From: Amphiura filiformis
Lineage: Eukaryota > Echinodermata > Ophiuroidea > Amphilepidida > Amphiuridae
Direction: 5' to 3'
DNA: 64,000 nucleotides
Assembly: GCF_039555335.1 (NCBI RefSeq)
Contig: NC_092635.1
Coordinates: 48,318,052 to 48,382,051, forward strand
Part shown: positions 1 to 63,560 of the stretch, one piece after another
How positions within the stretch are numbered: position 1 is the first letter of the stretch
Layout: each line of letters opens with the position of its first letter
Program-made: the position numbers and the translations under genes
The notes under the pieces: generated by a model
What the model was told of the DNA's origin: nothing
What the model saw: the letters and a program-made list of their open reading frames with translations, nothing else
Database searches by the model: none

Positions 1-1125
1 TAAATATTGGATTGAATCATTCAATATTTGGTGAACACTTAAATGGAAGCAGGTTAACATGACGTAAACTTTTAGACAATGTTCAAATTCATGGTAGATT
101 GGTTTGGGCATTTGTTTTTTGTGTAAAGGTGTAATAATTTAATAAATAGGCCCAAGTAAATTTTAAAAATAGGACCTGCTTTACTTTTAAAGTTTACTTA
201 AATTCATCAGAACTTGGGGAGGACATGTCAAGTCAAATGCCACTTGCTTTAAATGCATGTTTAACAAAATAATCATCAACATGATCAAGGATGCATGCGA
301 TTTCCTGCATTTAAATGCAAAATTAATTTTCAAAATGTTAATTCTTTAAAACTTTTTCCTAGCAAGTGTAATGCAAGTGGCTATATGATTTGTGCTGTTT
401 GCAGTATTTGGAAAATGGAAGATGAATTCAGATTTTCACATGTGTTTTGCACATTTTTTGCCATCTATTCATAGACATAGGCCTAGGCTACAGTGATTCG
501 AAAAAATATTAAACCACTCATGGATGCTACCATACGCACTCTTGTTATTAAAAAGTCTGATGCAGCAGCCGGTCGAATAAATGTCGGAGCTTCTGCAGAG
601 TATGCACATACATGCATTTGACACCATGCGACGCTCAGCTCGTACTAATTATATTTACATTTATTTATAAGCTTAGCCATGATGTAGATCATGCATTTCA
701 CACATGTACATCTGCATTTGCCTGTCTCTCTGCCGTGGCAAAACATGCGTACCACGGCTGACCATGTTATGCAAAAATAAATGTTGAAATATAAATAAAT
801 GAAAGAATGAGTGAAAATGAAGTATGAGAGTGCAATTAGCATGATTAGTACTACTAGTAGTGTCTAGTGTAGAATGAAATGAATAGGATAAAATTTATCG
901 TGCATAAATAATGTAACAAAAATGCATAGATCGTGCCAGCTGATGCAAGGATTCATGCCAAGTGATGCAAGTTAAAATGATAGTGATATTTTGTGGTCGA
1001 GGTCCTCTTCTAATATGACTTTTTATATAAATATTTGTCATTTTCTTTTGTTGAATCATCGTGAACATGATGAAGCCGAAGTGACCATCATTCATGCCCA
1101 GTCATAGCACCTAGTTTTTACAAAC
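1..1125. other. non-coding stretch, left edge
   Basis: AT-rich DNA with no convincing exon. Short open frames on the minus strand here lack splice sites and look random. A TAGGCCTA octamer lies at 478-485. Later exons of the proline-rich gene that begins at 1506 should lie in or beyond this stretch on the minus strand, but I could not recognise any. Confidence 0.5.
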
Positions 1126-1506
1126 CTGGATACCAGGACGAGGTCGCGGAGCTGGCCTTCCAAACTGTGTTTGTTGTGAAAATGGTTTTTGAGCCCCCAA
1201 CCCACCATGAATGTGACTTGGGACAGCTGGACGAGGATGGGACTTCTGTTGTGCAATAAGTGATGGGGGAACAGCAGACGAATGTGGTGGAATAGACTGT
1301 GCTGTAGGAACCTGTTGTTTCGGTGTATCACTATCAAAAGCACCAACGACTGCTGGTCGAGGCTCTAAACATGGTTCTGGAGGCACTGTCACTGGTTCCG
1401 GGACTGGTGTATGCATGGTAGCTTTGCTTGGAACTTCTGCTTCCTGTCCTTCTGCAGTCTCTCTTTCTCCCATTGGAGCGCTCGGGGTTTCTCCTCCCTC
1501 AGACAT
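1126..1506 (-). CDS. first coding exon of an unrecognised proline-rich protein (partial gene)
   Basis: An open frame of 127 codons runs from ATG at 1506 to a donor-like CAG|GTTTGT ending at 1126; a second possible donor ends the exon at 1134. The protein begins MSEGGETPSAP and is rich in Pro, Glu, Ser and Gln, with a basic Pro/Arg stretch (GRPAPRPRPG) near the exon end. I see no signal peptide, membrane segment or domain, and it looks disordered, as in many nuclear or scaffold proteins. Codon quality and the promoter-like sequence about 190 bp upstream support a real exon. Without splicing the frame would stop at 1111. The rest must lie to the left, largely off the window. I do not recognise the family. 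Confidence 0.55.
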
Positions 1507-1693
1507 GTCGCAAATAAATGTCTCAAACAAGCCCAAGTAGACAAGTAAACGTTCTCAAACTTCGCTGAAGTAAAGCAGATGCTATCTATTTCACTTCTAG
1601 TCTATTAGACAGCTTGCAATTTCTCAGGAACACATTATTTTTTACAGAAAATTTCAGTACTAAATCGCGATAAATTTCACGATGTCTTTGCGA

Positions 1694-1722
1694 GAAAGAT
1701 GGCGCTGAGAATGACGTCATTT
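1694..1722 (-). promoter_or_regulatory. CRE plus YY1-like promoter element
   Basis: A perfect palindromic CRE (TGACGTCA, 1712-1719) lies 6 bp from AAGATGGCGC (1696-1705), a YY1-type motif often found at transcription starts of housekeeping genes. They sit about 190 bp upstream of the ATG at 1506 and probably form the core promoter of that minus-strand gene. The pair could also drive a divergent transcript on the plus strand, but no plus-strand exon is evident. Confidence 0.5.
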
Positions 1723-1899
1723 TTCAGTCGATGAGGACGCCCTATTTCACTATTTTAGATCCAGGGGGTGGCGAACAGATGCCAGCTGAATCTCAGAACT
1801 ATAAAATAAAAGCTTATTTAGGCCCTAATACAACAATGTAGTTCGTTTGTTTTCATGGTTGATTTTAGGTTTAACTCAAATGATTTAAATCAAATGATT

Positions 1900-2215
1900 T
1901 TTGTAATCACTGATTTAAATCAACTTTTTCATTTCTTACCATTTTCGATTAAAAGTTAATTCGTTTATTTTATCAAGCAACTATAAGATCAACTCATATC
2001 ATGTTCTGATTCAAATCAACTTTTTCATTTCTAACCATTTTCGATTAATTTTAAGTATTTTATCAAGCAACTAAGATCAACCCATATAACAAGATGTTCT
2101 GATTTAAATCAGCTTTTTCATTTCTGGCCATTTTCGATTAAAAGTTACGGTAATTTAATTTATTTTATCAAGCTACTAAGATGATAGATCAACTCATAGC
2201 CTATAACAAGATGTT
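1900..2215. repeat. three-copy tandem repeat, ~100 bp unit
   Basis: Three consecutive copies share the core ATTTAAATCAACTTTTTCAT, then CCATTTTCGATTAA and TTTTATCAAGC, each ending near ATGTTCTG. Copies begin near 1905, 1990 and 2098 and differ by small indels. No coding potential. Confidence 0.8.
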
Positions 2216-3665: not shown

Positions 3666-3802
3666 CCCCCATAAGTGCACCATGTATGCCTACGTTTTGT
3701 CTCTTATACTTCCATGCTTGCACTGATCCATGCAGTGGTCCCTTTTATTTACTCCTTATTTACTACCAGGTTGCAACAGGTGTTAAACGTTGCGCCCTAG
3801 TA

Positions 3803-4291
3803 CACTGTTAAAACACTGTTTAAATTTTTTCTATTTAAAAAGACGTTGTTTACAGTTTTAAACAACATTGTTCAGTTTTATGTTACAACATGTTGTCTTA
3901 AACAAGGTTGTATAAGTTTTAAATAATGTTGTTTCCCCAAGCATCATATTCACCAGTCCATCAACTGAGTGAACAAGGAATAGGCCTAGTGATACATTCC
4001 CAAAGCTCTCAGGTGAGCAAAAATAAGCTTTGAGTAATTGTTTAACTTTCTTCATCATGTTGTTTATAAGTTTTATCAGCTTGCAAGATTTTAAACAACC
4101 GCTGTTTAGCGGGTGCGTCGCTCAACCTAAAAGTAAAATTAAACAACTTGTTTAAAAATTTAAATGTAAGTTGAACTTTTATACAAATTTTTATCGTAAA
4201 CAAGTTGATTTTTAAACAAGGTTGAGCGATGCACCCGGTAAACAGCGGTTGTTTAAAAGTTTCAACAACTCGTAGTTTTGTTCTAACAGTG
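3803..4291. mobile_element. TA-flanked MITE with CACTGTTA ends
   Basis: Terminal inverted repeat CACTGTTAAAAC / GTTCTAACAGTG between TA dinucleotides (3801-3802, 4292-4293). Inside, a second inverted pair (about 4094-4130 and 4217-4255) folds around CAACCGCTGTTTA. A second element with the same ends lies at 59988-60460. Probably a Tc1/mariner-type non-autonomous element. Confidence 0.65.
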
Positions 4292-4293
4292 TA

Positions 4294-5783
4294 GGCCTAT
4301 TAAAAATAGGCAACGTGAGCGTGAGTCATAACAACTCATAGGCCTAATAATATACCCTTATGTACATAGCCAACTAATAACTTAGGCCTAAAAATGCTAT
4401 TTCAGCTCCATTTTTTTTAAATTAAATGGTCGAGTCAGTATTTTTTTTCTGGACCATGGCCCTAATCATAACACTGCCTTATTAAACAGGGACGTAGCCG
4501 TGTAGTCAGGAGGAGGCGGGAAAAACTGCCCCCCCCCCCCCTCCCCCGAAATTTTTTAGGGATAAAATGTGGACGGCAAAGAGTAAATTAAAATGACTAA
4601 AAATGGGACAAGAAAATGACAAATGGGACAAAAATCTGGCTTTGCCCCTTACACTAAAATCCGGGACTAGCTAAATACATATGATACTGGCTGCATATAA
4701 TAGGCATACATTGAGAGGTAAATATATAGGCCCTATCATAGGTACATATATCTAGTTAAATGTCCCGAGTTAAGATGGATTTGGCCTGATAAAAAAATTA
4801 AAAATTCCGTAATAAAATAAATAGTTTTCCTGAAAATCAAAAAATTTGGGTCGTGAAAGAAGTTCACTTTCGTTATCAATATCAATGAAAAAATACAGAC
4901 ATAAAGGTTGAAAGACCTTTAACTGAATATGTTTGGGCCCAATATAAACCATATGATAAATATTCTGCAGAAAACATTTTGTCACGGTTCTTATGTGTTC
5001 CAGCCATGCCAGTAAAACAAAATCAAGAATGTAGGCCTACCCCGATGACCAAAAAATTTAAATTTGAATTGTTCGTCTTCTCCGAGCTAGGGGATACAAC
5101 AGAACCTTTTCAAAATTGAACTATCTTGTCAATTAATGAGTTGAAGATTGAAGAGACTGAGTTACTTTTTAAAATAAAACGGAAACTATTCATTTTGATG
5201 ATAAGATTGTCGGTTCAAACTTGATAAATATACTTATCAAAATGAACGATATATCTCATCAAAACGAATATAGTACGGGATCAAAAATAAATGAATAGGG
5301 ATTCTATTCAGAAAAATGAAAAGTGTGAAATTAGAGTAACGATAATCTTCATGGCCATGGTTAAGATTATGGTCAAACTAACCGGGTTTAAAGTAATTTG
5401 GCTTAAACTGAGATGGGCCGGCCTATAATAACATCATATGAATAATACTCGATTTTTTTTCTGGGATACTTTATACAAGCATGTTCCATGCGTATCTCTC
5501 TTGAGAATTAGTTGCCTCTTGGCATTAAACTTGAATTCACATTAGTCATGTATATTGAAATATCCTTCAGCGATATGTAAAATCATCAAGAAAGAAACTT
5601 ATCCCGATAGATACCACCTGAATGCATGGTAAAGATCTAATTTTTACGACATTTCCGAGCTACAATTTTACACCAATTGATTGTCATTTCAATCGGCAAA
5701 GGCATAAAGGTAAGATACAAATGTTCTTCTATTTCCTGGATTTCGTCTATCTTTTTATTTTCATACTGATGTATACGATATAA
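4294..5783. other. non-coding stretch with dispersed repeat fragments
   Basis: No exon seen. 4490-4640 carries a fragment (C-rich tract, then GGACGGCAAAGAGTAAA) that recurs at 42338-42480. Three TAGGCCTA octamers lie at about 4292, 4338 and 4383, and another at 5032. The rest is AT-rich unique sequence. Confidence 0.5.
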
Positions 5784-6195: not shown

Positions 6196-6340
6196 ACCAA
6201 GTCGGAGGAAAGGAAACTACAAAGGAAATTTAACATTTCCTTTTTTTTTCTTTTGGTCGAGCCAATATGCATCCCTTAAACGGGCATTTCGTGATATATA
6301 GGCCTACATCCTCCCTCACCCCACACTTTTCTCAAAAAAG

Positions 6341-7145
6341 TTAAGGGCTTGGATAGCGACGTTTTCACGTATTTTTTCAATTTTGTGGGATCTGAGAGCC
6401 GCCTCAGAGTCACACCAAATTGCATCTTGAATACGAGGAATGTTCTTCTGATATTAAATAATTTAGATTTTTTGAAATTCGCGATATAATATAAATTTTA
6501 TCAACAAATTATTAAAAAGTTGTATAAATCTAATAATGTACTTAAAGTGTATGTATAGCTGGGATGAAAAGGTGTCCATCATATTAAAATTGTGACCTTT
6601 TATATACATTTTTAGGTCTTTCAGGGAACAAAAATTAGTATCTTCAATACGAAAAATCAGAATGGTCGGCTTTTTATATCCCAGCTATACATGACTTTAA
6701 GTAGGCCTACATATCATTACATAGGCTTAGGAATCGGGGGGCTTGGGGGGGCTCAGTCCTTTCAATAATTTTTGTGCGGGGCTGGAATACCTTTCAGCCC
6801 CCAATAACCCTAGGTAAAGTTTAAAAATTGTGGGAAAATGGGTGTTTGTCTGACTCGGGAAACCCCCCTCGGGCACCCCCAGGGTGGCCCACCAAATTCT
6901 TTTCAAGTTTCAGCCCCCCCCCCCATGTTGAAAATCTTCCTAAGCCAATGCATTAGATATATAAAGTTTACTTCGAGGGACTGTTAAATGTTAAACATTT
7001 CAAAAATGTAAATTTTTAATAATTTGCATCAAATTTGGACTGTATTATGGCAATTATTTGATATCAGAAGGACATTCCACGTATTCCAAATACAGTTTGG
7101 AGTGTCTGATGTACTCTCAGGTCCCACCGTGAAAATACTGTTATG
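6341..7145. mobile_element. long palindromic TTAA element, copy 1 (diverged, with nested insertion)
   Basis: Starts TTAAGGGC and carries family landmarks: attgcat..gaatacgaggaatgt, AAGTGTATGT-agctggGATGAAAAGG near the left centre, and the mirrored CCCAGCTATACATGACTTTAA on the right. It is the most diverged of five copies (others at 8726, 19778, 32080, 63645). About 225 bp of unrelated inverted-repeat sequence (6724-6949) sits in the right arm. Confidence 0.65.
6724..6949. mobile_element. small MITE nested in the palindromic element
   Basis: Ends GGCTTAGGAA / TTCCTAAGCC face each other and enclose G-rich then C-rich sequence. It interrupts homology between the surrounding element and its relatives, so it arrived later. 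Target duplication unclear. Confidence 0.5.
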
Positions 7146-7149: not shown

Positions 7150-7700
7150 TGCAAAGATGGGTGACCGACCCCTTGTACATGTTGTAGAACGAAATTATAA
7201 CAGTAGACTAATAGTGGTCTACTGGTCTATACCCGTGGCATAGGCCTATCACATGCATGATTCGCGAACGCAAAATCGGAATCAACTGAAATTTTGGGAG
7301 AATAAGTTTTTTCATTGATATCTCTGAAAAATTTCATGAAAGGAGATGCTAGAAACACAAAATATACTCCTTTAAAACATGCACACAATCTAAAATGGGG
7401 GCGGTTACGGATCAACCCATAACATCATGGATCGAGTCATGCCCCTTTAAATACATGCATGGTTTAACCATCAAAAGTCACCCACATCGCATAGTTCAAC
7501 GACATTAAATACAAACATGTTTACCATGTTTACCAAGAGAAAATGATGCTCATATGTGAATATCGACTAAAGCAACTGGATAAAAACTATACAGAAATAG
7601 TTTTTCATAGTATTGGAGACTATCATGACGTCACGTCAGGAAAACTTGATTGAACCTGGCTCTATAGTCTTCGGATCGAAGTTTTACACCCCAATCCCAA
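7150..7700. other. non-coding stretch with a dispersed repeat
   Basis: 7250-7400 is an inverted relative of 41630-41780 (shared segments include CAACTGAAATTTTGGGA and a TTAAAGGAGTA-like end). No exon seen. A TAGGCCTA octamer lies at 7240. Confidence 0.45.
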
Positions 7701-8155: not shown

Positions 8156-8725
8156 GTGTTACCCACTTGAACTTGAAGCAGAAACTGGCATGAAAGAAAG
8201 GCAACAATAAATAAATAACAAAAACATTTATCAAAATAAAAGAAAACAAAATGAAACAACATCAAAAATATTAATAAATTAGTAACTTTAGGTCAACGTC
8301 ATCATTATTATAAGTATCATCAATTACCATGGCAACCGATACAGCGAAAACGTGGAAAGGTGTGAATTTGTCACTCTCATGTGTTGTCAACTAGCTCACC
8401 ACGTGAAATGTGTTGATGAAGCAAAGAGTTCGGGCTAGTTTGATGAAAAGGAATTTTTATATACACTGTTTTTAATTTACTAATTTTCTTTTATCCTGTT
8501 ATTTTCTTCATTTTCGTTCTCTGCATGCAGGCACCTACTGACATGCACTGGCTGCATCAGTAAACTGAAAAGCACTGAACTTGTCGTTTGGGCAGGGGTA
8601 AAATAGGTAAGTACTATAGTAGCCTAAATTTATTACTGTGCAATGTTTTAACAAACTTTATTTCAAATACGTTGTATATATAGGATCATCAAATTGGCTC
8701 GAAACATTAAAAAAAATATATTTGA
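8156..8725. other. non-coding stretch
   Basis: AT-rich, no splice-bounded frame and no clear repeat. Nothing to annotate. Confidence 0.4.
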
Positions 8726-9395: not shown

Positions 9396-10454
9396 TAGTG
9401 ATCATATTCTAAACACATATACATGTACCGTATTTGATTAATTGGTCCCGTAATAAAAGAATGTTTTGCCACTAAGTGATGTGCTTGTATTTGGATATTC
9501 TGATTTCTCCGTATATTATTCGAAGAGTTTGTTTGCAAAAGGCGCTAAATCCTTGTGTCACATTTTTCTGGTATAATATTTTAACATTTTTAAGTTTAAA
9601 TGACATTAAACAGTTGGAATTGATATGTTTGTAACTCTAGCCTATGTTCAACATCATTTTGTCACCTAAAAAAATTCACCAATCCTAAGTTCAAAAATGG
9701 CTGCCATTGGATTTAGCTCCTTTTGGAACAAAAACAAAAGTTTTTTTAATATTTATTATTTTCTTCTTCGTACGTGGCGGGTTAAAGAGATTTGCAATTA
9801 TTTTTTTTAAAGATAACCAAATGTTTTTATAACTATTCTAGTGGTCCAATGTTATTAGATTGGCAAATACTCTTAGGAATACACACAAAGCAGCCTTTGG
9901 AGTTAGTGCCTTTTGAAACAAACTCTTCATTTGAAAAAGTGAAGAGCAAATATTTCTGAAAATAATTCTGAAATATTGGCTGTTGAATGTTTTTTGTAGA
10001 ACGTGATTATAAAAATCTGCAACATTGGTAAAATGTATCTCATCTTTGGTATACCAAAACCAGGGACCGAAATCAATTAAGGATTCAATTTTAAGGAATG
10101 AATAAAATATCATCAATATTATACTTCCGAGCAACACGTTTGGAATATTTTGTATTTTCTTGCCAATGAGCGATAGAGATAGGTACGGAAAGCCATCATG
10201 TTCATATCACGAAGACAATATTAAATCGGGACCCCTGATGAAAACAAAACGAAAACGCGAGTCATGAGTTTTGTCCATGGGGATTACATCCATGAAACGA
10301 ACCCGAGGGTGGGACATTCACTAAAAATGGTGACGGGATGTGCGGCCACATTGACCCCGTTTTTTAACCCCCTCTCACGTCACCCAGTGACCCCTTTTTC
10401 TTTTTTTTCTTTTTACTCACCACCAAAAGATCCCATTTTTCAAGAACTTTGAAA
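9396..10454. other. non-coding stretch
   Basis: No gene recognised. A 99-codon minus-strand frame at 9838-10137 shows no family resemblance and no splice context. 10310-10440 holds a repeat line (GGGATGTGCGGCCACA, then CCCC- and T-rich) related to 11905-11955. Confidence 0.4.
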
Positions 10455-11599: not shown

Positions 11600-12359
11600 G
11601 TAAGTTTTTATTTTTTTTAAAGATGCTAAAAGGAGCCTCACTGAACAATAGGCTACATTAAAACGATAACGGTCACAAATTTTGGACATCCCGTGTGACG
11701 ATGATTTGCGGCACGCGGAGCTGAAAAGTACCGATTTTGGAAAGCAAGCAAAAAGGGGGAGCAAGATATTGTTTGGCAGGTCGAAAGGAGGAGGCAACGA
11801 TTTTTGGCACACACTACGCTCGCACCATCTATGATATTTGTCTCGTATCCCAGTTGTATCGTAGGCCATTAGCTGCCATTCAAGGTTTGAATATTAGATA
11901 ACTGAAATGTGCGGCCACACCCTGGTAGAAGGTGTACGGGGATGTGCCACGGTTTAGGGGTACCTTTTCAGCGATTTTGGGTATTGGAAACCAAAAGTAC
12001 AGATATGAGTTCAAAAAAGTAGGTATAGAGAAAGCCGGCATTCTAAAGCCTGCGAACAATTAAACCCCATGCGATATAGACGAGCGTTCGAAATAGTCCT
12101 TCGAGAAGGAGGGGATGGGGGCTCGGCGAAGCGAAGCCAAAGGCCGAGCAGCGAGCTAGCTATATATATAGTATAGGCCTATAGTTTCTAATATCGGCCG
12201 ACGAGAGTTTGAATGACTAGTACGAAACGTTAGCCGTTAGGAACAGATCCACAAAGTCCCCTATAAGTTACCCCTTATCAATGGTTATCATAATCATGAC
12301 AATGAGCCGTTATGTATATTTTTCTTTTCTGTTTCAGGAAGAGATACAATTGATCTTAC

Positions 12360-15257: not shown

Positions 15258-16200
15258 TCAGAACCAAATGCAGTACCGATTAAATTTTAGATTCTCATGG
15301 GGGGGGGGGCGGCGAAATCTGTTTTGTTAAATTATCAATATCCTGATTGTGGCGTCTTATTTTGGACATCTAAACCTATACATTTGTTTCTCAACTTTCC
15401 GCTACTCGCTATCCAAATTCAATTTCACTCCAAATTGAAGCTATAATACTAATTGCTTAGTATCGAGGATTTGTATATAAAAGTAAAACATTAAATTGCT
15501 CTGAAGAAGCATGCGTGCAATGCAAGGAAAATAAGCCTGGTGGTCCCGGTGAGCCCTTTAATTAATATAAAACATCATTTTCAATTTTCTGCTAAAAACA
15601 CTGCAATTTTGACATTTTACTGAAAGCTGAAGCATACGATGTTTGTATTATCGCCTACATGTATTGCAATAGATTTTGGTAGCTATCATGCAGATCATGT
15701 TAAATGCGCCATAGTTGGCAGAGATACAGTACAGAGCTAATCATATGCATTATAGGCTATGGAGCCATTTTATAACAGCACCCATATTTGTTGGGAAAAT
15801 GTCATTGAACTTTTATACAGTGGTCAATTTTTGCAAACTTGCTCGGACTTGGTTTAGTACAACAATAATGTGTTCATCTGGTCATAAGGATTCGGGAAAA
15901 GTATAGTTTTACTTACCTGCGATTTACGGTTATGGAGTTATGGGCAAATAGGTAGCAGTGTGACGTCACATGTCTAATTTGGGCTCCACATTGGGCGAAA
16001 ATGACCATTGCTCCGGTGTCGTTGAAACGGGTCTCAAATTATTCGTCTTACCATGAGAAATCAGAAAAGAAAAAGAATAGTTTGTTCTATGTATGATGTT
16101 TGTTACACAGCAAAATAGGACAATACCCATCGAATCGCATTGAGTTCTATACCGGGTTCTATATCAGTTTCTATATCGAGTCATTTCTGACCTTGACAAT
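15258..16200. other. non-coding stretch
   Basis: No gene or clear repeat seen apart from a short G-tract near 15300 and AT-rich sequence. Confidence 0.4.
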
Positions 16201-16378: not shown

Positions 16379-16869
16379 TATCATTTTTCTGATTTCTTGC
16401 AACAAGATGAATAGTTTGAGACCATTCAACAAAATCTTTTTTTTAAAGTTTTATTTTCGCCCCTTCGGAGCCAAAATTAAACATAAAATTATGATGTCCT
16501 AGTACCGTACATCATAGATACCGTCAAAGTATAGGCCTACTTTTATTGAATCCTTATGGCCAGAGGATGACGATGGTGTGGGTCATGAGCAAGTTTGAGT
16601 AACTTTAAACTTGACCCCTGTGTAAAGTTCAATGACCTTTTTCCACTAAGCGGGGTGGGCGTGGTGCTGTTGAAATGGCTCCATCAGATGTAGATACTAT
16701 TACTCTGCCAAATACGGCAACTTTAACATGATTTGCACGATTAAAATCTCTTGAACTATTAGGCCTATAAAGCCTGATTCTGATTGATTAAACAAAATTA
16801 TTTGATAGATACATAGCTTGACGAATCTAGACTCCTGTGATTTCTAAATGTGTCATTGTATATATTCTA

Positions 16870-17266
16870 TTAAGGTTATACGATGTATTGTTGGTCGAAG
16901 CAGCAGAAACAGAAAAAAAAGTAGTTCACAGCATCTTGCGAATGGTAGTGAGCTTTAGCAAAAATTGCATTGCTCAATTCATAGCGAGCGTGTAGAAGAA
17001 TTCAAATATCACAGATAGGCCTATACTTTTGTAGTCCTGTGGTTCTTGAGTATGTTGTAAAGAGGGCTGAAACAACAACACTTTTGTAAAACGTATATAC
17101 ATAACTCATTAACAACAATAAATTAAGCAAGTTTTCAAAGTATATGATTTGTAGAATGAACTTTTGCAAAACACCAAAGTGTTATTTTTCAATAATATAT
17201 TGATTCAGATAATGACAATCTATTTTCTTTGGCTGCTTCGCCCAACATTACCTCGTATACCCTTAA
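16870..17266 (-). mobile_element. TTAA-type MITE, copy 2 (both ends present)
   Basis: Ends TTAAGGTTATACGATGTATT and AATGTTGGGCGAAGCAGCC (read on the minus strand) with TTAA at both edges. Homologous to the plus-strand copy at 3000. It carries one extra AGGCCT at 17024-17029 relative to that copy. Confidence 0.7.
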
Positions 17267-19138: not shown

Positions 19139-19777
19139 GTGAGTGTTTGCTACATCAAAGTTCTCGCTCTCTGTCTTTGTTTTTTCTAGTTCACCCCTTA
19201 TCCTTTTCTACCTCCTCTCGCTTTGTATAGGCCTAAATATGTCTCTCTCCCTCCACCCACCCCTCTCACCCTCTCCTCACTCTGTGCTCTACGTTATCTT
19301 TATAACTTTTGTTTTCTCTAGAACATACGTGTTTTAATGGTATTCAACTATTCACATCGAAAATTGTTTCGCCGAAAAATGCCTTTGTCGTAATTGTGGA
19401 GAAAATTACAGCATGGACATTTTACTGATGTGATATACGTTTAACCAAAACGTATATTTTCCCTGTTCACTTATTTTCCTTGATGATACTTTTATAATTT
19501 ATTAACCAAGCTAATCATATAATTTCACATCTTACACCGTATAAAATATTTTTTTGTTCTCGTCCCCTCCCGCCTCAATTTCTGGGATTTCCAAAAATTT
19601 GAAGAATTGGAATGCTTTTCGAAAACTTCATACAATATGTTTATTAGAGAACAAGGATCAATTTCTATAGTTTGTCTGTGGTGCTCTATAGGGTTGATCC
19701 CTCTCAGAATCTCACTTAAAAAACACTCCCTGATCAATTCATAACATTTTCCGTCAACAAATTAATTTCATGTGGCC

Positions 19778-42690: not shown

Positions 42691-42695
42691 TTGTT

Positions 42696-42884
42696 AGGCT
42701 AATCCAGTTGAAATCCATACACCCCCTATGAAAGACATGTCCTTAATCTTCCCTCACATGGGTGTGTAGATTTCAAATGGAATCATCCATTCAGGTAGCT
42801 CCATTTACAATTTACACCCCCTGTGTGGAATATTAAGGTAATGTCTTCCATAGGGGGTGTATGGATTTTAACTGGAATAGCACA
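42696..42884. mobile_element. foldback MITE with GGCTATTCCAGTTGAAAT-type ends, copy 1
   Basis: Arms AATCCATACACCCCCTATG / CATAGGGGGTGTATGGATT and inner pairs around ATTTCAAATGGAAT. Relatives at 45401-45692, 47735-47815 (part) and 50765-50972. Confidence 0.7.
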
Positions 42885-43169: not shown

Positions 43170-43177
43170 GCCAGGTG

Positions 43178-44134: not shown

Positions 44135-44139
44135 AAATT

Positions 44140-45400
44140 TTCTTTGCTCCGCGCATTTATTCAACAAACAAGCCCAGTATTGGTTCATTGGTTCTTGAGA
44201 TAGCTCTTGATATTTTGAGAAAAATATCTCAAATCTTGGACTTTTTATGTTGAAGCCTATGGCTAGTACGCAGAGCATTAATTTTACATCATCACAAAAT
44301 CTGCACATTCCATTGAAGGTGAATGACATAATACAAATTCCAAGACATGTACATCATTCTAGTACTTTGGCCATTGAACTTCAAAAAAGTAAATATTACA
44401 AAATATTGTTTTCAATCAAATATATAGTGTAGTATAACAAGTAATATTGATATGATTGTTGCTAACAACAATGTAACACTGATCTGATAGAGAGAGGTCA
44501 TGCATGTGTGTAATTCAAACTTGTTCTTCGTCATGACCAAGTCGTTTTGACATTCTCAAGACAGTGAAAGTAACAATGAATCTTCAAAAATCCAAAATTT
44601 ACGTAGATCTATGCCCAGATTATAGAATTAATATTATCACATATAAAATATTTGCCATTTTCTGCAATTACTTTTCTCTGATGAAGGCACCGGATGAATC
44701 AACCTTCCTTTTATGGAACCCAATCAAGGGTCAAGGAGAGTTTGATTGACTGACACAAACTAGTCTTTTTAATTCATTCTCAGATTAGGCCATCTTAATT
44801 TAATAGTTTGTCTCATAGTCATAGTAAAATTGTCCGCTTTTTGCGTGTTGTTCAGTTTTTTCCTGCTGTTTTATTTTTTTCCAAATCCACCACACAAAAA
44901 TCTCATGTCTGACATCGCCAGATGTCAAATTAGCCTAAATCGTAAATCTCAATAAAATTCTTTATCTTGATCACAGTGAACCCTCCTTGATAGATGAAAA
45001 GGTGGGCTACTCTTGTCAAAAAACTCATCCAACAGATATGAAAATTAAAGTAAAAAAAAAACACTTTAAAAATGCATCCTGCATTACGTATTTAACTTGG
45101 GAAAGACTTTGAGACAAGCTATAAAATTAAGATGGCCTTATAGTATTTGTCACAGACATTCATTTTACCCCTTTTGAAATATCAGGGAAGGGTCTTTAGC
45201 TTTCTTCAACCTATAAGTTGGGAAAATTATTTGTTTTTTTGTACCATGCAACTTATGCTAGCGTAAATATGTGTGCACAAGTCAAAAAGCACACATCCAT
45301 GGGTGCCAAGCCCAACTGTGTGCACACCTTTCTTTACCAATGCACAATGTTATGAGTCTTACCACTTAATAGGTTGAACGAAGTATTAATGTTTATAAAG
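44140..45400. other. non-coding stretch downstream of TPGS2
   Basis: No exon recognised. 44762-44795 is half of the MITE seen complete at 46163-46294 (AACTAGTCTTTTTAATTC). Confidence 0.45.
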
Positions 45401-45692: not shown

Positions 45693-45741
45693 CAATACAC
45701 TGAAACAAGTGTGATATAATACTAGATACATCTGGGCATAC

Positions 45742-48700: not shown

Positions 48701-51700
48701 CCAGGATTATTGCTTAAAAAGGACCATGCAAAACATTATCATCAATTTTGAGGTAATGACTCTGGTCCAAAAGCATGGAAACTTGTTCAGTAGGCCAAAA
48801 TACTTGGCTGTAGATGTAGATAGAAAAAAAACCTTGAACACAAGGGAACAAGCAAAAAGTTTGATGATGTCTTAAAACGAAAATCATTTCATTAGGACAG
48901 CAGGGGGACAAAAAAGTCCAATTACGTTGGTAAAAAAACTAGTTAAAATATCAGTCAAACTTGATCTTTAGGGTTGGAATGTTTAAAATTTCACACTTAC
49001 ATTTCAGGGAGGGAGGGGTCAGTCTCCTAACTAAAGCACTTTCATTTATAGGAAGTTGTTTTAAAACCTTTGGTTTGTTCCTGGTTCCTTAACAGGTGCA
49101 AAGAATTATTACCTTCTTCCTCACTGTCATAATCGATCATCTCCAGTCCATTATTAGATGTTGTTGATGGCTTCTCTCCTGCAAGTTTCTTGACATCTGT
49201 GATGCTGTTGATCTCCATCCGACCCACTGGCATTGAGTTCTCTACAATCAAAACAATATAACAATCATTAGCAGACACTTCTCATCATGTTGCCGAAACG
49301 TACAAAGTGGATATTTTTAGATCAGAAAATTGACTTTTAAAATGAAAATACAAATATTCACTGTCTTCCTACTCAAGTGTCAGAATTTTGCTACTGTATA
49401 AATAGCAGCATCTAGATTGCCCAAGGCTCAGCGGCACAAAGACATACCTCCAATGGCTACTGTATAGGGCCTAAACATTGAATGCATTCAGATTTCCCAA
49501 AGCTTAGCGGCACAAAGACGTATATCCATTAGCTGCAGTATAAATTATTGCATCTAAATTACCCAAGGCTCAGCAGCACAAAGACGTATCTCCATCAACT
49601 GCTGTATAAGTGATTGCATCTAGATTACCCAAGGCTCAGCAGCACAAAGACGTATATCCATTAGCTGCTGTATAAGTGATTGCATCTAGATTACCCAAGG
49701 CTCAGCGGCACAAAGATGTATCTCCATTAGCTACTGTATAAATGATTGCAGCTAGATTACCCAAGGCTCAGCGGCACAAAGACATATCTCCATTAGCTGC
49801 TGTAAAAATGATTACACCTAGATTACCCAAAGCTCAGCGGCACAAAGATGTATCTCCATTAGCTGCTGTATAAATGATTGCATCTAGATTACCCAAGGCT
49901 CAGCGGCACAAAGACGTATCTCCATTAGCTGCTGTATAAATGATTGCATCTACATTACCCAAGGCTTAGCGGCACAAAGATGTATCTCCATTAGCTGCTG
50001 TATAAATGATTGCATCTAGATTACCCAAGGCTCAGCGGCACAAAGACGTATCTCCATTAGCTGCTGTATAAATGATTGCATCTACATTACCCAAGGCTTA
50101 GCGGCACAAAGATGTATCTCCATTAGCTGCTGTATAAATGATTGCAGCTAGATTACCCAAGGCTCAGCGGCACAAAGACATATCTCCATTAGCTGCTGTA
50201 AAAATGATTACACCTAGATTACCCAAAGCTCAGCGGCACAAAGATGTATCTCCATTAGCTGCTGTATAAATGATTGCATCTAGATTACCCAAGGCTCAGC
50301 GGCACAAAGACGTATCTCCATTAGCTGCTGTATAAATGATTGCATCTACATTACCCAAGGCTTAGCGGCACAAAGACGTATCTCCATTAGCTGCTGTATA
50401 AATGATTGCATCTAGATTGCCCAAGGCTCAGCGGCACAATGATGTATCTTCATCAGCTGCTGTATAAATGATTGCATCTAGATTGCCCAAGGCTCAGCGG
50501 CACAATGATGTATCTCCATTATCTGCTGTATAAATGATTCCATCTAGATTACCCAAGACTCAGCGGCACAATGATGTATCTCCATTAGCTGCTGTATAAA
50601 TGATTGTACCTAAAGCTCTACCCACAGATCTAAATCAAGGGGTTATATGAAAGAAGGAACTATATATGCAATAACTGCCCTACTGTACACATCTAAAAAT
50701 ATGACACCTGGCAGCTATTGTAGATGGGATATTCTCGCCCCAACATTTCAGCAAGAGTAAAAAATGGGCTATTCCATTTGAAATCCATACACCCCCTAAT
50801 GGAAGACATGGTATTAATCTTCTACAGAGGGAGTGTGAATTTCACATGGGGTAACCTGAATCATGTGAATGGGTGACTCCAATTGAAATCTACACCCACT
50901 GTATGGGATGTAATTTAAGGTCATGTCGTCCATATGGGGGGTAAATGTATGGATTCCAACTGGAATAGCCCAATGTTTTTCTCACCATCTAGTTTGACAC
51001 TCCATCTGAGCAGAAGGCCGTCTGATGTCAGGTAGAAGTGTTTCAGATCATCTGGTAGTAAACAGGAGTTCCTCTGTTCCCAGGTCACCAACTGATGGCG
51101 CTGTGCTGGAGGTAGATGAGACAAATGCACATCGCAGATGCTTGGCCGCTTTTCTGTAATTAGATAAGGTACCAAACTCATCATTTGATTTACAGATCTA
51201 CCTTTTTAACACTTAAAATTAGACTTCCACATTTAAGGTGACATGTTGTAAATTACCCTATACTCATTCTCCTACCAGTCTAATGTCTGCACCTACTGAA
51301 AAAAAATGAGAACAGGTATGACTATGGGTTTACATACTAAAAAATACTTCCTGTCGGTCAGAGGCCAGGCTTTTGCTCCATCTATCACTAGTCTTAGGAA
51401 ATTATGTTTTTTGTAAACTTGAGCAGTGAGTCCTAACTTTAGCAGTGAGTCCTAACTTTAGACTGCCAGCATGCTTTCAGTCCTTTACATACCGGTACTG
51501 AAATTTACATCATAATGATAAATGAAGATACTGAGTTACATTTACTGGAACTAGCCTAACTTATGCTGTGCTTACTCTAGCTGGAACTCTAGCTTTGAAT
51601 TTGAACACGATAGTTTGCATTTGACACTACATGTAGAGTCTGTTGCTGTCGTTTTTAGGTTGAAAAAACATCAATAGATTTCGAAATACGATAGCTCTAC

Positions 51701-55223: not shown

Positions 55224-55496
55224 CAGGCCCGTAGCCAGGACTTATTGGGGGGGTCTGATTTTGAACAAGTGGACTTTTTTTTTCAAAATTTGGACCTTTT
55301 TGGACTGGAGGGGCGGATTTTGACATTTTTTTTGACCATTTTTTCCCGCAAATGGGACTTTTTGGGTCAAGACGCATAAAAACCTATATTTTTTCGCTCG
55401 CTACGGTCGCACATAGGCCTATGGGACTTTTTGGGCATTTGGCATTGGGGGGTGCACCGCATCCCCAGCACACACACCCCCCTGGCTACGGGCCTG
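55224..55496. mobile_element. hAT-type MITE (CAGGCCCGTAGCCAGG ends), copy 2
   Basis: 273 bp with perfect 16-bp inverted ends CAGGCCCGTAGCCAGG / CCTGGCTACGGGCCTG and an exact 8-bp duplication GGCACAAC (55216-55223, 55497-55504). Core shares lines with 23258-23526 (..GGACTTTTTTTTTCAAAA..). Young and non-autonomous. Confidence 0.92.
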
Positions 55497-55664: not shown

Positions 55665-56370
55665 TTTGAAACTACTGATAAGGTATCAGTGCTGAAATTA
55701 TGCAAAAGACGGGAACTCACCAGAAAGTGAGCAAGCCGAAAAGTGGCGAAGCCAAGGCCAGGGTTTTAGGCTTTTTTGTAATTTTTAGTCCTTAACCCCT
55801 TGACCACCCCCCCCCCCCTTCCCCATCCTCTTCAAAAGTCCTGGTTACAGTTACGCCACACTGATTTGCAGTATTGTAATAGTGCTTTCCAATCTTTGAG
55901 AATCCTAAATGCTACATAGACAGCGAAAAAGCATGAAACATTAAAATATATAGGCCGGTAGTTTCCTTATACGCGTTGTGCTTGAGCCTCAGAAAATAGT
56001 CATCATAAAGCCTATGCTGAGCTATTTAAAAAGGCTAATTTTGTGAGGGGCCCGTGACGTGTAAGACTGTATTATAATACTATATAGATTTGAGTAACCT
56101 GGATTTTTTTTGTTTTTTTGTCTGAATTTATATAATTTGTATTTAAACACACATTAAACCTGTCTAAGATTATTACATCATGGGATTAGCTGCCAATCCG
56201 AATGGAATTAACTAATGATAATATTAATGGTAGGCCTATATTTTATACAATTTTATATAACATTGTCGACGGAAGTTATATATTTTTAGGTACGTTAAGC
56301 ATATTAAGATAAAGAACATCGAAAGATTAGATTACACAACAGAATTCAATTGAATTTAATTCTGTGGATC
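55665..56370. other. non-coding stretch
   Basis: No exon seen. Short C-tract near 55808; TAGGCCTA at 56232. Confidence 0.4.
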
Positions 56371-56740: not shown

Positions 56741-56849
56741 TTGGAAAATAGACCTTTTGAAATGATTTTTCCATTTATATTTTTACAGATTAAGAATGTG
56801 GATAAAGAATTATGGGCCCCGGGCCCAAAACGCCAAAACAGAGAGCAAT

Positions 56850-58996
56850 GACAATGCTATGCACTAGGATCGCAATGACAATTCTATCTACTGAAGATAG
56901 CAATAACAATGCTATACACTAAAGATGGTAATGGCAAATGCTATCTACTGAAGATAGCAATGACAATGCTACACACTAAAGAAAACGATGTCAATGCTAC
57001 TTACTGAAGATATCAATGTCAAATGCTATCTGCTGAAGATAGCAATGTCAAATGCTATCTACTGAAGATATCAATGACAATGCTATCTACTTACTAAAGA
57101 AAGCAATGTCAATGCTATCTACTGAAGATAGTAATGTCAAATGCTATCTACTGAAGATAGTAATGTCAAATGCTATCTACTGAAGGTAGCAATGGCAATG
57201 CTTTCTACTGAAGATAGCAATGACAATGCTATCTACTGAAGAGAGTAATGTCAAATACTATTTACTGAAGATAGCAATGTGAAATGCTATCTACTGAAGA
57301 TAGTAATGTCAAATGCTATCTACTGAAGATAGTAATGTCAAATGCTATCTACTGAAGGTAGCAATGGCAATGCTTTCTACTGAAGATAGCAATGACAATG
57401 CTATCTACTGAAGAGAGTAATGTCAAATACTATCTACTGAAGAGAGCAATGTCAAATGCTATCTACTGAAGATAGTAATGTCAAATGCTATCTACTGAAG
57501 GTAGCAATGGCAATGCTTTCTACTGAAGATAGCAATGACAATGCTATCTACTGAAGAGAGTAATGTCAAATACTAACTACTGAAAATATCAATGTCAAAT
57601 GCCAGGCCTATCTACTGAAGATAGCAATGCCATTGCTATACACTGAAGATACCAGTGTCAAATGCTATCTACTGAAGATAGCAAAGTCAAATGCTATCTA
57701 CTGAAGATAGCAAAGTCAAATGCTATCTACTGAAGAATGCATTGTCAGTGCTATCTACTGAAGATAGTAATGTCAAATGCTATCATTCTGCTGAAGATAG
57801 CAATGGCAATGCTATCTACTGAAGATAGCAATCTACTGAAGATAGCAATGACAATGCTATCTACTGAAGAGAGTAATGTCAAATACTATCTACTGAAGAG
57901 AGCAATGTCAAATGCTATCTACTGAAGATAGTAATGTCAAATGCTATCTACTGAAGGTAGCAATGGCAATGCTTTCTACTGAAGATAGCAATGACAATGC
58001 TATCTACTGAAGAGAGTAATGTCAAATACTAACTACTGAAAATATCAATGTCAAATGCCAGGCCTATCTACTGAAGATAGCAATGCCATTGCTATACACT
58101 GAAGATACCAGTGTCAAATGCTATCTACTGAAGATAGCAAAGTCAAATGCTATCTACTGAAGATAGCAAAGTCAAATGCTATCTACTGAAGAATGCATTG
58201 TCAGTGCTATCTACTGAAGATAGTAATGTCAAATGCTATCATTCTGCTGAAGATAGCAATGGCAATGCTATCTACTGAAGATAGCAATCTACTGAAGATA
58301 GCAATGACAATGCTATCTACCGAAGAGAGTAATGTCAAATACTATCTACTGAAGATAGCAATGGCAATGCTATCTACCGAAGATAACAATCTACTGAAGA
58401 TAGCAATGACAATGCTATCTACCGAAGAGAGTAATGTCAAATACTATTTACTGAAGATAGCAATGTGAAATGCTATCTACTGAAGATACCAAAGTCATAT
58501 GCTATCTACTGAAGATCGCAATGTCAAATGCTACCTACTGAAGATAGCAATGTCAAATGCTATCTACTGAAGAAAGCAATGACAATACTATACACTAAAG
58601 ATAACAATGTCAAATGATATCTACTGAAGATAGCAATGTTATTGATATACAATGAAGATAGCAATGTCAAATGCTATCTACTGAAGATAGCAAAGTCAAA
58701 TGCTATCTACTGAAGATAGCAATGACAATGCTATACACTGAAGATAACAATGACAATGCTATCTATTGGAGAAAGCAATGTCAATGCTATCTACTGAAGA
58801 CAGCAATGTCAAATGCTATCTACTGAAGATAGCAATGACAATGCTATACAATAAAATAAAGATAACAATGGCAAATGATATCTACTGACGATAGCAATGT
58901 CATTGATATACACTGAAGATAGCAAAGTCAAATGCTATCCACTGAAGATATGAAAGTCAAATGCTATTTACTGAAGATAGCAATGACAATGCTATC
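56850..58996. repeat. hairpin satellite, block 1 (28-29 bp unit)
   Basis: About 75 units of GCTATCTACTGAAGATAGCA-ATGTCAAAT or the 28-bp form with ATGACAAT. In each unit GCTATC and GATAGC pair around TACTGAA, so the array reads almost the same on both strands. Variant markers (GGTAGCAATGGCAATGCTTTC) recur at about 57181, 57355, 57497 and 57954, giving higher-order spacings of about 173, 142 and 457 bp; a 456-bp block is duplicated (about 57440-57896 and 57897-58352). Confidence 0.93.
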
Positions 58997-59985
58997 AAAT
59001 TTATTTATGTATTATTTATCTATTCATTCAGCTACATATCAGTTATTAGTTACTTTTTAATTAATTTCATGATTAAGCCCATTTGCCTTCGAATTCCACA
59101 GAAAGGAAAATGGCAATAAATCAAATTATTTTTGACCCCACTTTTGCTTAGTAGTAGTAGGCCTACCCCCTGGCAAGTTGCATATTTTTGGCTCCATGGG
59201 TACTACTCTTGTTATAAGGGCTACATTGTTGACATTCAAAAATTCACATCTATTGCGGCTTTGTTAATTGTTCATCTTCCAGAACACTCATTTTAATTAA
59301 CAAGTTTATTTTTAATAACCCACAGATCTACAATAAATGACAATGCGCTACTTCATCAATACAGATCTACTGAGACATAACTTGGAATGTACTATACTAA
59401 ATTAACATGCATGTATAGGCCCATCGTGACGGCCCTGTCACATGGGAAAAACTAAGAAAAATTGCTGTTAAGCATAAGTAGACTTTATAAATGTGATTTA
59501 CGATGATTTCAGCAGATTGATCAGAATTTTCAATTTCTTAAATGGGCACAATTTCCTGCGATAAAAAGTTAGCAGAATTAGTAGTGATCGGTCAAAATTG
59601 AACAAGATTTGTAGTGATTAGTCAAAATTTAGCATAAGTTTATACGATTTCAAGCTATTTCACTATATATTGCAGATTGACAGAATTTGAAGCAACTTCG
59701 TAACATTTATGAAAATTAGCAAGATCTGTAGTGATCGGTCAAAATTAAGCAAGATTTGTTCTGATTGGTCAAAATGTATATTAATAACGTTTAACATTTG
59801 TTAGAGCAAATCATATACTTTGGCACCTATCTTCGTGTGTTCTCTTGTTTCTCTCATTGTTTCAACAGAACCCATGTTTTCCCCATTCAAAACAGTAAAA
59901 TAAACGCAACAATACAGTCATGCATACACAACATGGCTTCAGATTATAGGCCTACATTGCTATCATTTCTCCCAAGATGAGCCAA
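58997..59985. other. unique AT-rich stretch between satellite blocks
   Basis: No exon recognised. 59520-59780 repeats short lines such as GTAGTGATCGGTCAAAATT. TAGGCCTA occurs at about 59158 and 59947. Confidence 0.45.
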
Positions 59986-59987
59986 TA

Positions 59988-60460: not shown

Positions 60461-60462
60461 TA

Positions 60463-60860
60463 GAGGATAAGATACTTCTTTCCCTTTTTTGGTAATATCT
60501 TTATTGTTAAAATTTGCATAGCATTAATTAATTACTTGTAAATTACCTTCCCAAAGCAATAATTTTTAAAATTGTCGTTAGAATCATAAAATAATTTAGG
60601 CCTAATTAAGTTAATTCCACAGTTCAGAATTCGAAAATCAATTTTGAGAGTCATAAAAGCATACACAATTCGTGCATGATCAATTGCGCGTGAACAACTA
60701 GATGAAAAAGTGCTTTCAACTGGAACCTACATCTACTGTATGTGCAATATTGAACATTTGTTTTTACTAAAAATGCATTATTGTGAATATTGTCGTATGA
60801 ACTTCACATAAATTCATTAAGGTCATGGTACTTTGAAAAAAGTGTTAACTGCCAAAATAA
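60463..60860. other. non-coding stretch
   Basis: AT-rich; a TAGGCCTA at about 60597; nothing else recognised. Confidence 0.4.
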
Positions 60861-61555
60861 CACTAAAGATAGCAATGTCAAATGCTATCTACTGAAGTTA
60901 GCATTGAAATATGCTATACTCTGAAGATAGCAATGTCAAATGCTATCTACTGAAGATAGCAATGAAATCGCTATACTCTGAAGATAGCAATGTTAAATTT
61001 AATGTTGATAGCAATTAAAAATGCCACACTGAAGATAGCATGTCAAATGCTATCTACAGAAGATAGCAATAAAAACTGCTAAAGATAGCAATGTCAAAAT
61101 GCTATATACTGAATATAGCAATGTCAAATGCTAGGCCTATCTACTGAAGATAGCAATGAAAATGTTATAGTCTGAAGATAGCAATGTCAAAATGCTATAC
61201 TGAAGATAGTTTTAAGAAGTTTTATTATGGTTTATGAAAAAATGTTATACGCTGAAGATAGGAATGTCAAATTCCATACTCTGAAGATAGCAATATCAAA
61301 ATGCTATCTACTGCAATGAAAATGCTATCTACTGAAGATAGCTACGAAAAAATGCTATACTCTGAAGATAGCAATGTCAAATTCTATCTACTGAATATGA
61401 CAATGAAAAATTCTATACTCTGAAGGTTGAATTTCAAAATGCTATTTATTGAAGATAGCGATGTCAAATGCTATCTACTGAAGATAACAATGAAAATATT
61501 ATCTACTGAAGATAGTAATGTCAAATGCTAAATACTGAAAATAGCAATGAAAATG
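60861..61555. repeat. hairpin satellite, block 2
   Basis: About 24 units of the same satellite, more diverged and using TACTCTGAAGATAGCAATG variants. One unit carries CTAGGCCTATCTACTG where others have CTATCTACTG. The block ends at the 5' junction of the LINE. Confidence 0.88.
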
Positions 61556-63560
61556 TATGGGTGAATTTTCAAAAATCGGCTGGCCCCTTTCCTTTTGACC
61601 TGCCAAAATATAACACATCTTACCTTAAAAACTTGCATCATATAATTCACCACCCTGGGGTACACATAGTTATTGCACTCCCTTTTGACTGTTACCAAAA
61701 CTTTATTTCTTGTCCTTACGGACTATACCAAAGCCTTCGACATGATAGACCACAGAATTGCTGTCATCAATTTGTTGAAGATGGGCGTCTCCCCTGCAAT
61801 TGTGGAGTGGGTGATTGACTTCCTTTCCTCCCGTAAGCAAAGGGTTAAGTACACTAGCAAACCTTGTTCTGAATGGGTTACTCTCTCTGGAGGTGTTCCA
61901 CAAGGTACCAACATGGGACCTATTACCTTTCTTGCCATGATCAACTATGCATTGAATGATGTCCAGCATACAAACAACAGAGTCTGGAAATACGTTGATG
62001 ACCTGACAATAGGTGAAAATCGGGCATATAGTGATGATAGTGCAATCCAAGAGAATCTTGATGCCCTCACTGAGTGGTCTAAGAGCAATAAATTGAAGTT
62101 GAACCCTTCAAAATGTCAGGCCATGCAAGTTTATTTTGGTAAGAAGGCTACCCCACATGTTGATCTGTCCATTGATGATAAAAAAATAGCTGTTGTTGAG
62201 AAGGTTAAACTCCTGGGTGTTATGATCCAAAACAATTTATGTTGGGATGATCAAGTTGATTCAATGTATGTGAAGGCCAATCGTAAACTCTTCATGCTCC
62301 GTAAACTGAAGGAAGCATCTCTCTCACCCGAGGAGTTGTTATTGGTGTACAAGGGGTACCCCGCCCTGTTTTAGAGTATGCCGCCCCACTTTGGCATTCT
62401 GGTCTTACTCATAATCAGGTGGCCCAGCTTGAGAAAATTCAGAGACGTGTTTGCAAATACATCCTTGGTAGAAAGTATACTACCTATGCAGATTCCTTAG
62501 CTACCCTTGAACTTCATTCGTTGTCTGAGAGGAGACAAAACATCTGCAAGGAATTTGCCCTGAAAGCAAGCACGTCTGTGATGTTCTCACACTGGTTTCC
62601 ACCTTGTAAGTATCACTCCCACATGACTCTTAGAAGACAACCAACATTTGACTCTTTTAGATGTAGGACCAACCGATTTCAAAATAGTCCCCTACCATTT
62701 CTCACCAACATCCTAAAAGCAATGTAGTTTGATTTTATTGCCAGTCTTTTTTTGATATTGTTCCAAATCCAGTCAAGTGCAATTATAATGTGTTCTTATT
62801 TATTTGTATATTATTTAATGTTTGAGTGTTTTAATTATTAATGTACGAGGGGTATCCAAAAGTTTTTGACATCACCCAGAAGCGAAGGAGCTATATCGAT
62901 GAAATTTTGTCAGTGTAATTACTGGTCCTTATGTACAGTATGGTCCAAAAATGGTCTCATAAGTATGTTTACTTTCTTTACAGGTGGCGCTAGATGGGCA
63001 GTAGGCGCATAACCTTTTCATGATAAGATTCTCCACTTTCTTGAATTTCTTCACTGTGGCCGCATCATCCGAAAGTGATGGACGTCCACTTCTTGGCTCA
63101 TCTGTGAGGGACATGTGGCCAGTTTGGAAATTCCTTTTTCAAAAAGCACCAGTGCCATATGATGGGCAATCCTCACCGTAGATAGCTTTCATTTCATCAT
63201 AGATTTTCTGAGCATTGTAGGCCTAACCCTTCATATGCAGGAACTTAATCACGCTGCGTGCCTCAATTTTCACCATTTTACAGGTTATGCGCCTACTGCC
63301 CATCTAGCGCCACCTGTAAAGAAAGTAAACATACTTATGACACCATTTTTGGACCATAATGTACATAAGGACCAGTAATTACACTGACAAAATTTCATCG
63401 ATAAAGCTCCTTCGCTTCTGGGTGATGTCAAAAACTTTTGGATACCCCCTCGTATGTATATTTCATAATGCTATTTTTAATGTAAATGTCATGCAATTCA
63501 GCCGTTGGCTGCTATGTGATTTCTAATAAAATATACAATATACAATATACAATACAATTT
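61556..63560 (+). mobile_element. 5'-truncated CR1-like LINE with nested mariner relic
   Basis: Reverse transcriptase motifs run in order on the plus strand: DYTKAFDMIDH (about 61718), GGVPQGTNMGPITFL (about 61890), catalytic YVDDLTI (about 61993), KLNPSKCQ, LLGVMIQNNLCWD, then the C-terminal region LEYAAPLWHSGLTH..QRRVCKYILG. A one-base loss near 62358 shifts the frame between RT and C-terminal part. No endonuclease is left. The 3' region is split by a mariner relic (62846-63452) and ends in (ATACA)n-like repeats near 63530-63560. Clade assignment to CR1/L2 relatives is by motif style. Dead copy. Confidence 0.88.
62846..63452 (-). mobile_element. mariner-type relic, copy 2, inside the LINE
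   Basis: 607 bp, ends CGAGGGGTATCCAAAAG / CTTTTGGATACCCCCTCG, flanked by TA (62844-62845, 63453-63454). The minus strand encodes the mariner transposase N-terminus: KIEARSVIKFLHMKG (about 63275), YNAQKIYDEMKAIYGEDCPS and DEPRSGRPSLSDDAATVKK (about 63100), with stops between and no catalytic domain. Relative to copy 1 it carries an extra AGGCCT at 63219-63224. Confidence 0.85.

Follow-up and report, generated by a model that had tools for sequence, protein, structure and literature searches.

A recurrent six-base insertion at TA sites of the brittle star Amphiura filiformis, probably left by excision of a Tc1/mariner-like transposon

In a window of 64,000 nucleotides from the brittle star Amphiura filiformis (assembly GCF_039555335.1, contig NC_092635.1, positions 48,318,052 to 48,382,051; coordinates below count from the first base of this window), the palindromic octamer TAGGCCTA was found exactly 24 times, bearing out the count of about 24 in an initial annotation made from the sequence alone. 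Alignment of related repeats showed that a TA in one copy is replaced by TAGGCCTA in the other, leaving a TA on both sides of the filler GGCC, and this was clean at the sites starting at 36594, 61132 and 63218. The best reading of these results is that the octamer works like the footprint of an excised Tc1/mariner element.

The abundance of the octamer was compared with several null models. Dinucleotide shuffles of the window gave a mean of 0.36 copies and a maximum of 2, with none of 100 shuffles reaching 24, and Markov models of order 0 to 3 gave expectations of 0.74, 0.47, 0.41 and 0.52. At orders 4 to 6 the expectation rose to 3.7, 13.5 and 23.3, because models of these orders already hold most of TAGGCCTA. 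When the tandem arrays were masked, 22 copies were left in 54,092 bases, where 0.35 would be expected (Poisson probability 5e-32), and among the 8-mers with at least five occurrences only poly-C ranked above the octamer. Runs of C8 or G8 had 60 overlapping occurrences in the whole window, against 1.6 expected outside arrays. TAGGCCTA was the commonest palindromic octamer of the window, with words of only A and T ranking below it. The shuffle, Markov and array-masked counts ruled out chance or composition as its source, and the observation is real and strong. One copy was present per 2.7 kb; 12 gaps between neighbouring copies were shorter than 1 kb (7.4 in simulations, p 0.02) and six were shorter than 500 bases (4.1 in simulations, p 0.2). 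If the window is typical, the A. filiformis genome, of 1.57 Gb and sequenced from sperm (PMC11310086), would hold about 589,000 copies. Five open reading frames (ORFs) treated as coding, together 6,631 bases long, contained no copy, which says little because a random spread would put only about 2.5 there.

To find repeat partners, the 24 octamers and two sites of a changed form, CAGGCCTA, were each aligned with 60 bases of flank to the window. A partner spanning the site was found for six of the 24 octamers (6299, 16532, 17016, 36594, 61132 and 63218); those at 6702 and 27446, from pairs proposed in the initial annotation, were aligned separately, and the 16 remaining octamers had no partner. 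In six of the eight partnered octamers the partner was six bases shorter at the TA. The octamer at 63218, in a pair carried by 600-bp inverted-repeat elements, showed a six-base gap both against 39522-39615 and against 39482-39372. In the 108-bp array, the octamer at 36594 stood in one of the seven units matched by a simple pattern, and none of its 12 spanning alignments listed out of 18 carried it, the gap being six bases in nine and seven to eight in three. In the 29-bp satellite, one of 32 matched units carried TAGGCCTA and two carried CAGGCCTA (57603 and 58059); the 12 spanning alignments of 61132 listed out of 95 comprised nine with a six-base gap, the two CAGGCCTA units and one gapped otherwise. 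Since most matched array units lack the octamer, its insertion, and not a deletion, is the derived state in the arrays.

These three pairs confirmed the initial annotation, and its three other pairs held in part. The octamer at 27446 had a six-base gap against the arm near 27267, although the alignment was weak (56/92); the partner of 17016 (3179-3300) was six bases shorter but had its TA substituted; and the partner of 6702 at 20224 was six bases shorter overall, with the gap split by the aligner. At 16532, a six-base gap against 15930 appeared in one alignment and not in the other, so that it depends on the alignment, and 6299 differed from 41959 by a gap of 12 bases. The statement that the change is six bases within a TA in every case was therefore too strong given 16532 and 6299, and applies to six of the eight partnered octamers. 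Self-alignments of the window gave 717 distinct indel entries, 28 of them of exactly six bases, and nine of these 28 were the present insertion, at six loci including the two CAGGCCTA sites.

The age of the scars was estimated from words one mismatch away from TAGGCCTA, which numbered 14 against 9.0-11.6 expected with the octamers masked from the background; two of the 14 were the CAGGCCTA pair. The scars look young because these neighbours are barely above background, and the count ruled out an old, decayed motif. The excess corresponded to a mean divergence of 1.3-2.6%, and the interval reached from zero to 6-7.5%. A burst, mostly of DNA transposons, at 2% divergence has been described in A. 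filiformis, where a neutral rate of 1.885e-9 led the authors to an age of 10-15 million years (PMC11310086), and the scar age is compatible with this burst, which is no proof of a connection. Three satellite units are scarred at one position, two of them, with C as first base (CAGGCCTA), in identical stretches, and at least one scar looks inherited. Scars that are nearly undecayed, with the residents missing, would also be seen if they were made anew in each body by programmed somatic removal of transposon-like inserts, with TAGGCCTA as the junction, resembling the internal eliminated sequences (IESs) of ciliates but scarred. Such removal appears very improbable, as inheritance most easily explains the three satellite units and sperm was the source of the published A. 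filiformis assembly (PMC11310086). An artefact of sequencing or assembly is less probable still: the evidence comes from one assembled window, but the fixed insertion stands at scattered TA sites in both unique and repeated DNA and has a changed, duplicated descendant. To our knowledge, no type of error produces this pattern.

Other fillers of G and C between two TA were also counted. GGCC occurred 24 times against 0.34 expected, GGC or GCC (TAGGCTA/TAGCCTA) 12 times against 3.97 (other estimates about 4-4.6), and GGGCC or GGCCC (TAGGGCCTA/TAGGCCCTA) three times against 0.18. CCG/CGG was found seven times against 3.68 and CCGG three times against 0.36, and a few other fillers were single cases. 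The fillers GG/CC (23 against 21.56) and GC (11 against 11.55) were flat, and neither CCC (2 against 5.7) nor CCCC (2 against 1.5) was enriched. The window thus holds a palindromic filler within the range of two to four bases, GGCC with 24 copies, together with two enriched classes of length variants, and among all TA-N-TA words TAGCCTA topped the three-base list. At 478-490 two scars have one TA in common, reading TA-GGCC-TA-GGC-TA. Compared with the 66-bp units beside it, TAGGGCCTA at 49465 had a 7-base gap at the TA and a 3-base gap nearby, or one 10-base gap; TAGCCTA at 2197 was a 5-bp insertion by BLAST and part of a 10-base gap in a second alignment, and both sites are suggestive only as variant insertions. 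A major product accompanied by one-base losses and gains suggests the joining of short overhangs, of which it is the expected outcome. A palindrome with a function, which selection or biased conversion maintains or multiplies while the insertions arise by chance, would agree with the enrichment and little decay of the exact octamer and with the one copy that begins 186 bases ahead of a gene. However, the six-base insertion is also present in satellites, arrays and repeats resembling miniature inverted-repeat transposable elements (MITEs), where selection is unlikely, and the three- and five-base forms are enriched too, which makes a functional site highly doubtful.

The excision footprint of a TA-target transposon, one of two ideas put forward in the initial annotation, is the best supported by the TA duplication, the palindromic filler, the variants, the derived state and the youth of the scars, although its parent was not found. 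TAGGCCTA is probably the footprint of a TA-specific, Tc1/mariner-like element with the ends 5'-GG...CC-3'. A cut-and-paste DNA transposon with these termini, moving in the Tc1/mariner mode, would duplicate the TA on insertion; on excision from its TA target, staggered cleavage within the 5' ends would leave each donor end with a few terminal bases, and the donor ends would be fused by end joining into TA + GG + CC + TA. One base less would yield TAGGCTA/TAGCCTA, and one base more TAGGGCCTA/TAGGCCCTA. With a two-base stagger, the junction would read TA-GG-CC-TA when both overhangs stay, and both would presumably be kept because GG overhangs are unable to pair. Alternatively, a three-base stagger at ends 5'-GGC...GCC-3' might allow pairing via GC and give TA-G-GC-C-TA, in which case an overlap of all three bases with one mismatch may produce TAGGCTA/TAGCCTA, and trimming on one side GGGCC/GGCCC. 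Purines stood beside the TA on 35 of 48 sides, where 53% would be expected (p 0.006), a bias in line with the direction of the AT-palindrome preferred as target by ZB and Sleeping Beauty (SB) (PMC7913693).

The same junction could be written by direct micro-insertion, in which a TA-cutting nuclease or domesticated transposase, fill-in, addition of two untemplated G to each 3' end and joining would together produce TAGGCCTA. The lack of a convincing parent element in the window agrees with this route, as do the G on one filler side and C on the other and the enriched variants that differ by one G or C. Untemplated addition should nevertheless be more variable in sequence and length, and GG/CC (23 against 21.6), CCC (2 against 5.7) and CCCC (2 against 1.5) were not enriched, so that we consider micro-insertion unlikely. 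The terminal-transferase-like product named as the second idea of the initial annotation is less probable than a footprint, and accounts less well for the fixed GG plus CC. A host-run or domesticated TA-cutting process, as opposed to the ordinary excision of a mobile element, that writes GGCC at an extrapolated 590,000 sites, which would be a new animal mutational signature, is about as improbable as micro-insertion, or a shade less so.

Several results weigh against excision as the source of the scars. The density comes from one 64-kb window, and the genome figure holds if that window is typical. The excess of three-base forms is modest, with one of 100 shuffles attaining 12; TAGGCCCTA was fourth in the five-base list of TA-N-TA words, with three words above it, and TAATGATA and TACATGTA were also raised in that scan. 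The partnered variant sites at 2197 and 49465 give no single unambiguous insertion, T at position -2 was not significant (p 0.13), and the three-base class had no purine preference (11 of 24 sides). Scars and burst match loosely, because any divergence from zero to 7.5% lies within the interval. No convincing resident with TA-GG...CC-TA inverted ends was found in the 64-kb window, and no transposase was found in 25 ORFs scanned against Pfam, which were drawn from 77 listed stop-to-stop ORFs of at least 75 amino acids. As its parent was not found, TAGGCCTA is not assigned to any one transposon family here. The missing resident is less damaging than it looks, because 1000 copies genome-wide predict only 0.04 residents in a 64-kb window. 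A low-copy family that has been moving for about the past ten million years would be enough, since each move adds a scar and leaves the copy number flat: 589,000 octamers over 10.6 million years amount to 0.055 new ones per year per haploid genome, a rate that 1000 copies would reach if each were excised 5.5e-5 times a year.

Candidates for the parent were examined among the inverted repeats of the window. A scan for TA-GG...CC-TA (12-base arms, at most three mismatches) gave four pairs, of which one lay inside a larger element and two ran between octamers; the fourth, 46522-46668 (147 bp, 3/12 mismatches), shared tenth place among 1527 TAGG/CCTA pairs and is probably a chance match. At 63002-63295, arms that match exactly over 9 bases, within 3 kb of each other, lay inside a larger element with the outer ends CGAG, and the pair 42851-50798 was one among several copies of an TAGGGGGTGTATGG repeat. 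The 600-bp elements were rejected with ends that read CGAG, and the TA-flanked inverted repeats with other ends, such as CACT, in the 24 pairs listed out of 76. The 600-bp elements themselves (62849-63448 and 39189-39788) have long inverted arms that are 98% and 96% complementary, with TACGAGGGG at three of the four outer ends, and the TA-flanked pairs at 3801-4293, 59986-60462 and 7937-8093 end in CACTGTTA or CACTCTTA. The footprint of Tc1 is TACATGTA; this word, a possible footprint of CA...TG or CACT-ended elements, occurred eight times against 2.0 expected, and no insertion of its type was among the six-base indels listed from the self-alignments.

Table 1 Scar sites and candidate scar sites in the window, with the evidence for each.
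Form	Position	Strand	Evidence or context
TAGGCCTA	478..485		GGCTA directly after; scar 484..490 shares its right TA
TAGGCCTA	3981..3988		word count
TAGGCCTA	4292..4299		first TA is right flanking TA of inverted-repeat element 3801-4293, ends CACTGTTA
TAGGCCTA	4339..4346		word count
TAGGCCTA	4383..4390		word count
TAGGCCTA	5032..5039		word count
TAGGCCTA	6299..6306		partner at 41959, 12-base gap
TAGGCCTA	6702..6709		palindromic element; partner 20224 six bases shorter, gap split
TAGGCCTA	7241..7248		word count
TAGGCCTA	12174..12181		start 186 bases ahead of C1q/collagen ORF
TAGGCCTA	16532..16539		partner 15842-15930; six-base gap in one alignment of two
TAGGCCTA	16760..16767		word count
TAGGCCTA	17016..17023		repeat partner 3179-3300 six bases shorter
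TAGGCCTA	19228..19235		word count
TAGGCCTA	27446..27453		one repeat arm; other arm near 27267 six bases shorter, weak alignment
TAGGCCTA	36594..36601		one unit of 108-bp array
TAGGCCTA	40903..40910		word count
TAGGCCTA	55414..55421		word count
TAGGCCTA	56231..56238		word count
TAGGCCTA	59158..59165		word count
TAGGCCTA	59947..59954		word count
TAGGCCTA	60597..60604		word count
TAGGCCTA	61132..61139		one unit of 29-bp satellite
TAGGCCTA	63218..63225		within 600-bp inverted-repeat element 62849-63448; copy 39189-39788 without octamer
CAGGCCTA	57603..57610		satellite position equal to that of 61132
CAGGCCTA	58059..58066		surrounding stretch identical to that of 57603
TAGGGCCTA	49465..49473	+	adjoins 66-bp array; 7-base and 3-base gap, or one 10-base gap
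TAGGCCCTA, five-base form	1819..1827	+	class enriched; candidate site
TAGGCCCTA, five-base form	4727..4735	+	class enriched; candidate site
TAGCCTA	2197..2203	+	BLAST: 5-bp insertion; second alignment: 10-base gap
TAGGCTA, three-base form	484..490	+	right TA of octamer at 478 in common
TAGCCTA, three-base form	8620..8626	+	class enriched; candidate site
TAGCCTA, three-base form	9638..9644	+	class enriched; candidate site
TAGGCTA, three-base form	11649..11655	+	class enriched; candidate site
TAGGCTA, three-base form	15753..15759	+	class enriched; candidate site
TAGCCTA, three-base form	29501..29507	+	class enriched; candidate site
TAGCCTA, three-base form	37304..37310	+	class enriched; candidate site
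TAGGCTA, three-base form	41258..41264	+	class enriched; candidate site
TAGGCTA, three-base form	42695..42701	+	class enriched; candidate site
TAGCCTA, three-base form	44931..44937	+	class enriched; candidate site
TAGCCTA, three-base form	51552..51558	+	class enriched; candidate site

Several other features were found in the window. An intact ORF of 309 amino acids at 12360-13289 (+) encodes a collagen/C1q protein with 94% identity (290/309) to an Amphiura filiformis protein, and 10761-10911 and 13974-14124, with identical ends 3213 bases apart, may mark a direct duplication around this gene. A BTB/BACK exon and a kelch-repeat exon lie at 29633-31324 and 25762-26364 (-), and an ORF at 26579-27064 resembles kelch on visual inspection and continues into trinucleotide repeats; the three possibly form one kelch-like gene. 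The named best relatives of the BTB-kelch ORF were from sea stars (54-55%), other proteins reached 63-79%, and no A. filiformis protein was among its 18 matches. An ORF of 902 amino acids at 20528-23236 (+) consists of SEGSGD-rich repeats with a sub-threshold Pfam match, and none of 7989 scored candidates reached an E value of 0.001 as its relative. The 29-bp satellite forms two blocks (56840-58996 and 60862-61555), and its stretches 57543-57670 and 57999-58126 are identical and 456 bases apart. A reverse-transcriptase fragment at 61673-62374 (+) directly follows the second block, and no relatives of it were found in viral contigs.

Among the literature matches listed from a partial library, none described TAGGCCTA or GTAGGCCTA as an insertion, and the library searched gave no match for TAGGCC together with brittle star. 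In viral contigs, pairs of the octamer and pairs of control octamers both occurred, one stretch had the triple-octamer pattern, and the word of the 108-bp array was absent; the satellite word was absent from the bacterial and archaeal genomes. If the octamers are excision footprints, scars far outnumber residents and form a near-complete log of the sites of one transposon, so that a pattern search could count how often the element is excised, which targets it takes and how the sites are repaired in the germline of a wild animal, a burst could be dated, and the effect of excision footprints alone on a genome could be addressed. If they are not, the animal has an unknown and highly uniform micro-insertion process.

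The scars were compared with known systems of TA-directed transposition and DNA removal. In ciliates, TA-bounded IESs are removed by transposase-like enzymes, leaving one TA and no filler; unlike these, the present scar has a filler and at least one looks inherited. PIF/Harbinger elements and Tourist MITEs often have ends that start with GG and duplicate three bases, TWA, whereas two bases (TA) were duplicated at 36594, 61132 and 63218. What is surprising is how densely the scars lie, as a typical window would imply about 590,000 in the genome, and we know of no genome in which footprints are as dense. The statement of the initial annotation that no described system does this was too strong, as Tc1/mariner elements are described to insert at TA, duplicate it and leave excision footprints of 2-4 bp (PMC7913693). 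SB and mariner cut three nucleotides inside their ends (PMC7827188), and the footprints reported are 0-3 bp for ZB (PMC7913693) and 0-4 bp for Passer (PMC9976928). Unlike in these four, the major form here has four bases, not three, and is uniform over many sites. For ISY100, cleavage is reported two nucleotides in from the 5' ends of the element, and its ligated donor has the junction TATATA, in which the two filler bases kept equal one overhang and the overhangs can pair (PMC2170065). The present case is unlike ISY100 in its GGCC filler, in a parent that was not found in the window and in one footprint per 2.7 kb, but it is like Tc1/Tc3 and the IS630-Tc1-mariner group to which ISY100 belongs in its TA target, its duplicated TA and the short remainder of the transposon end.

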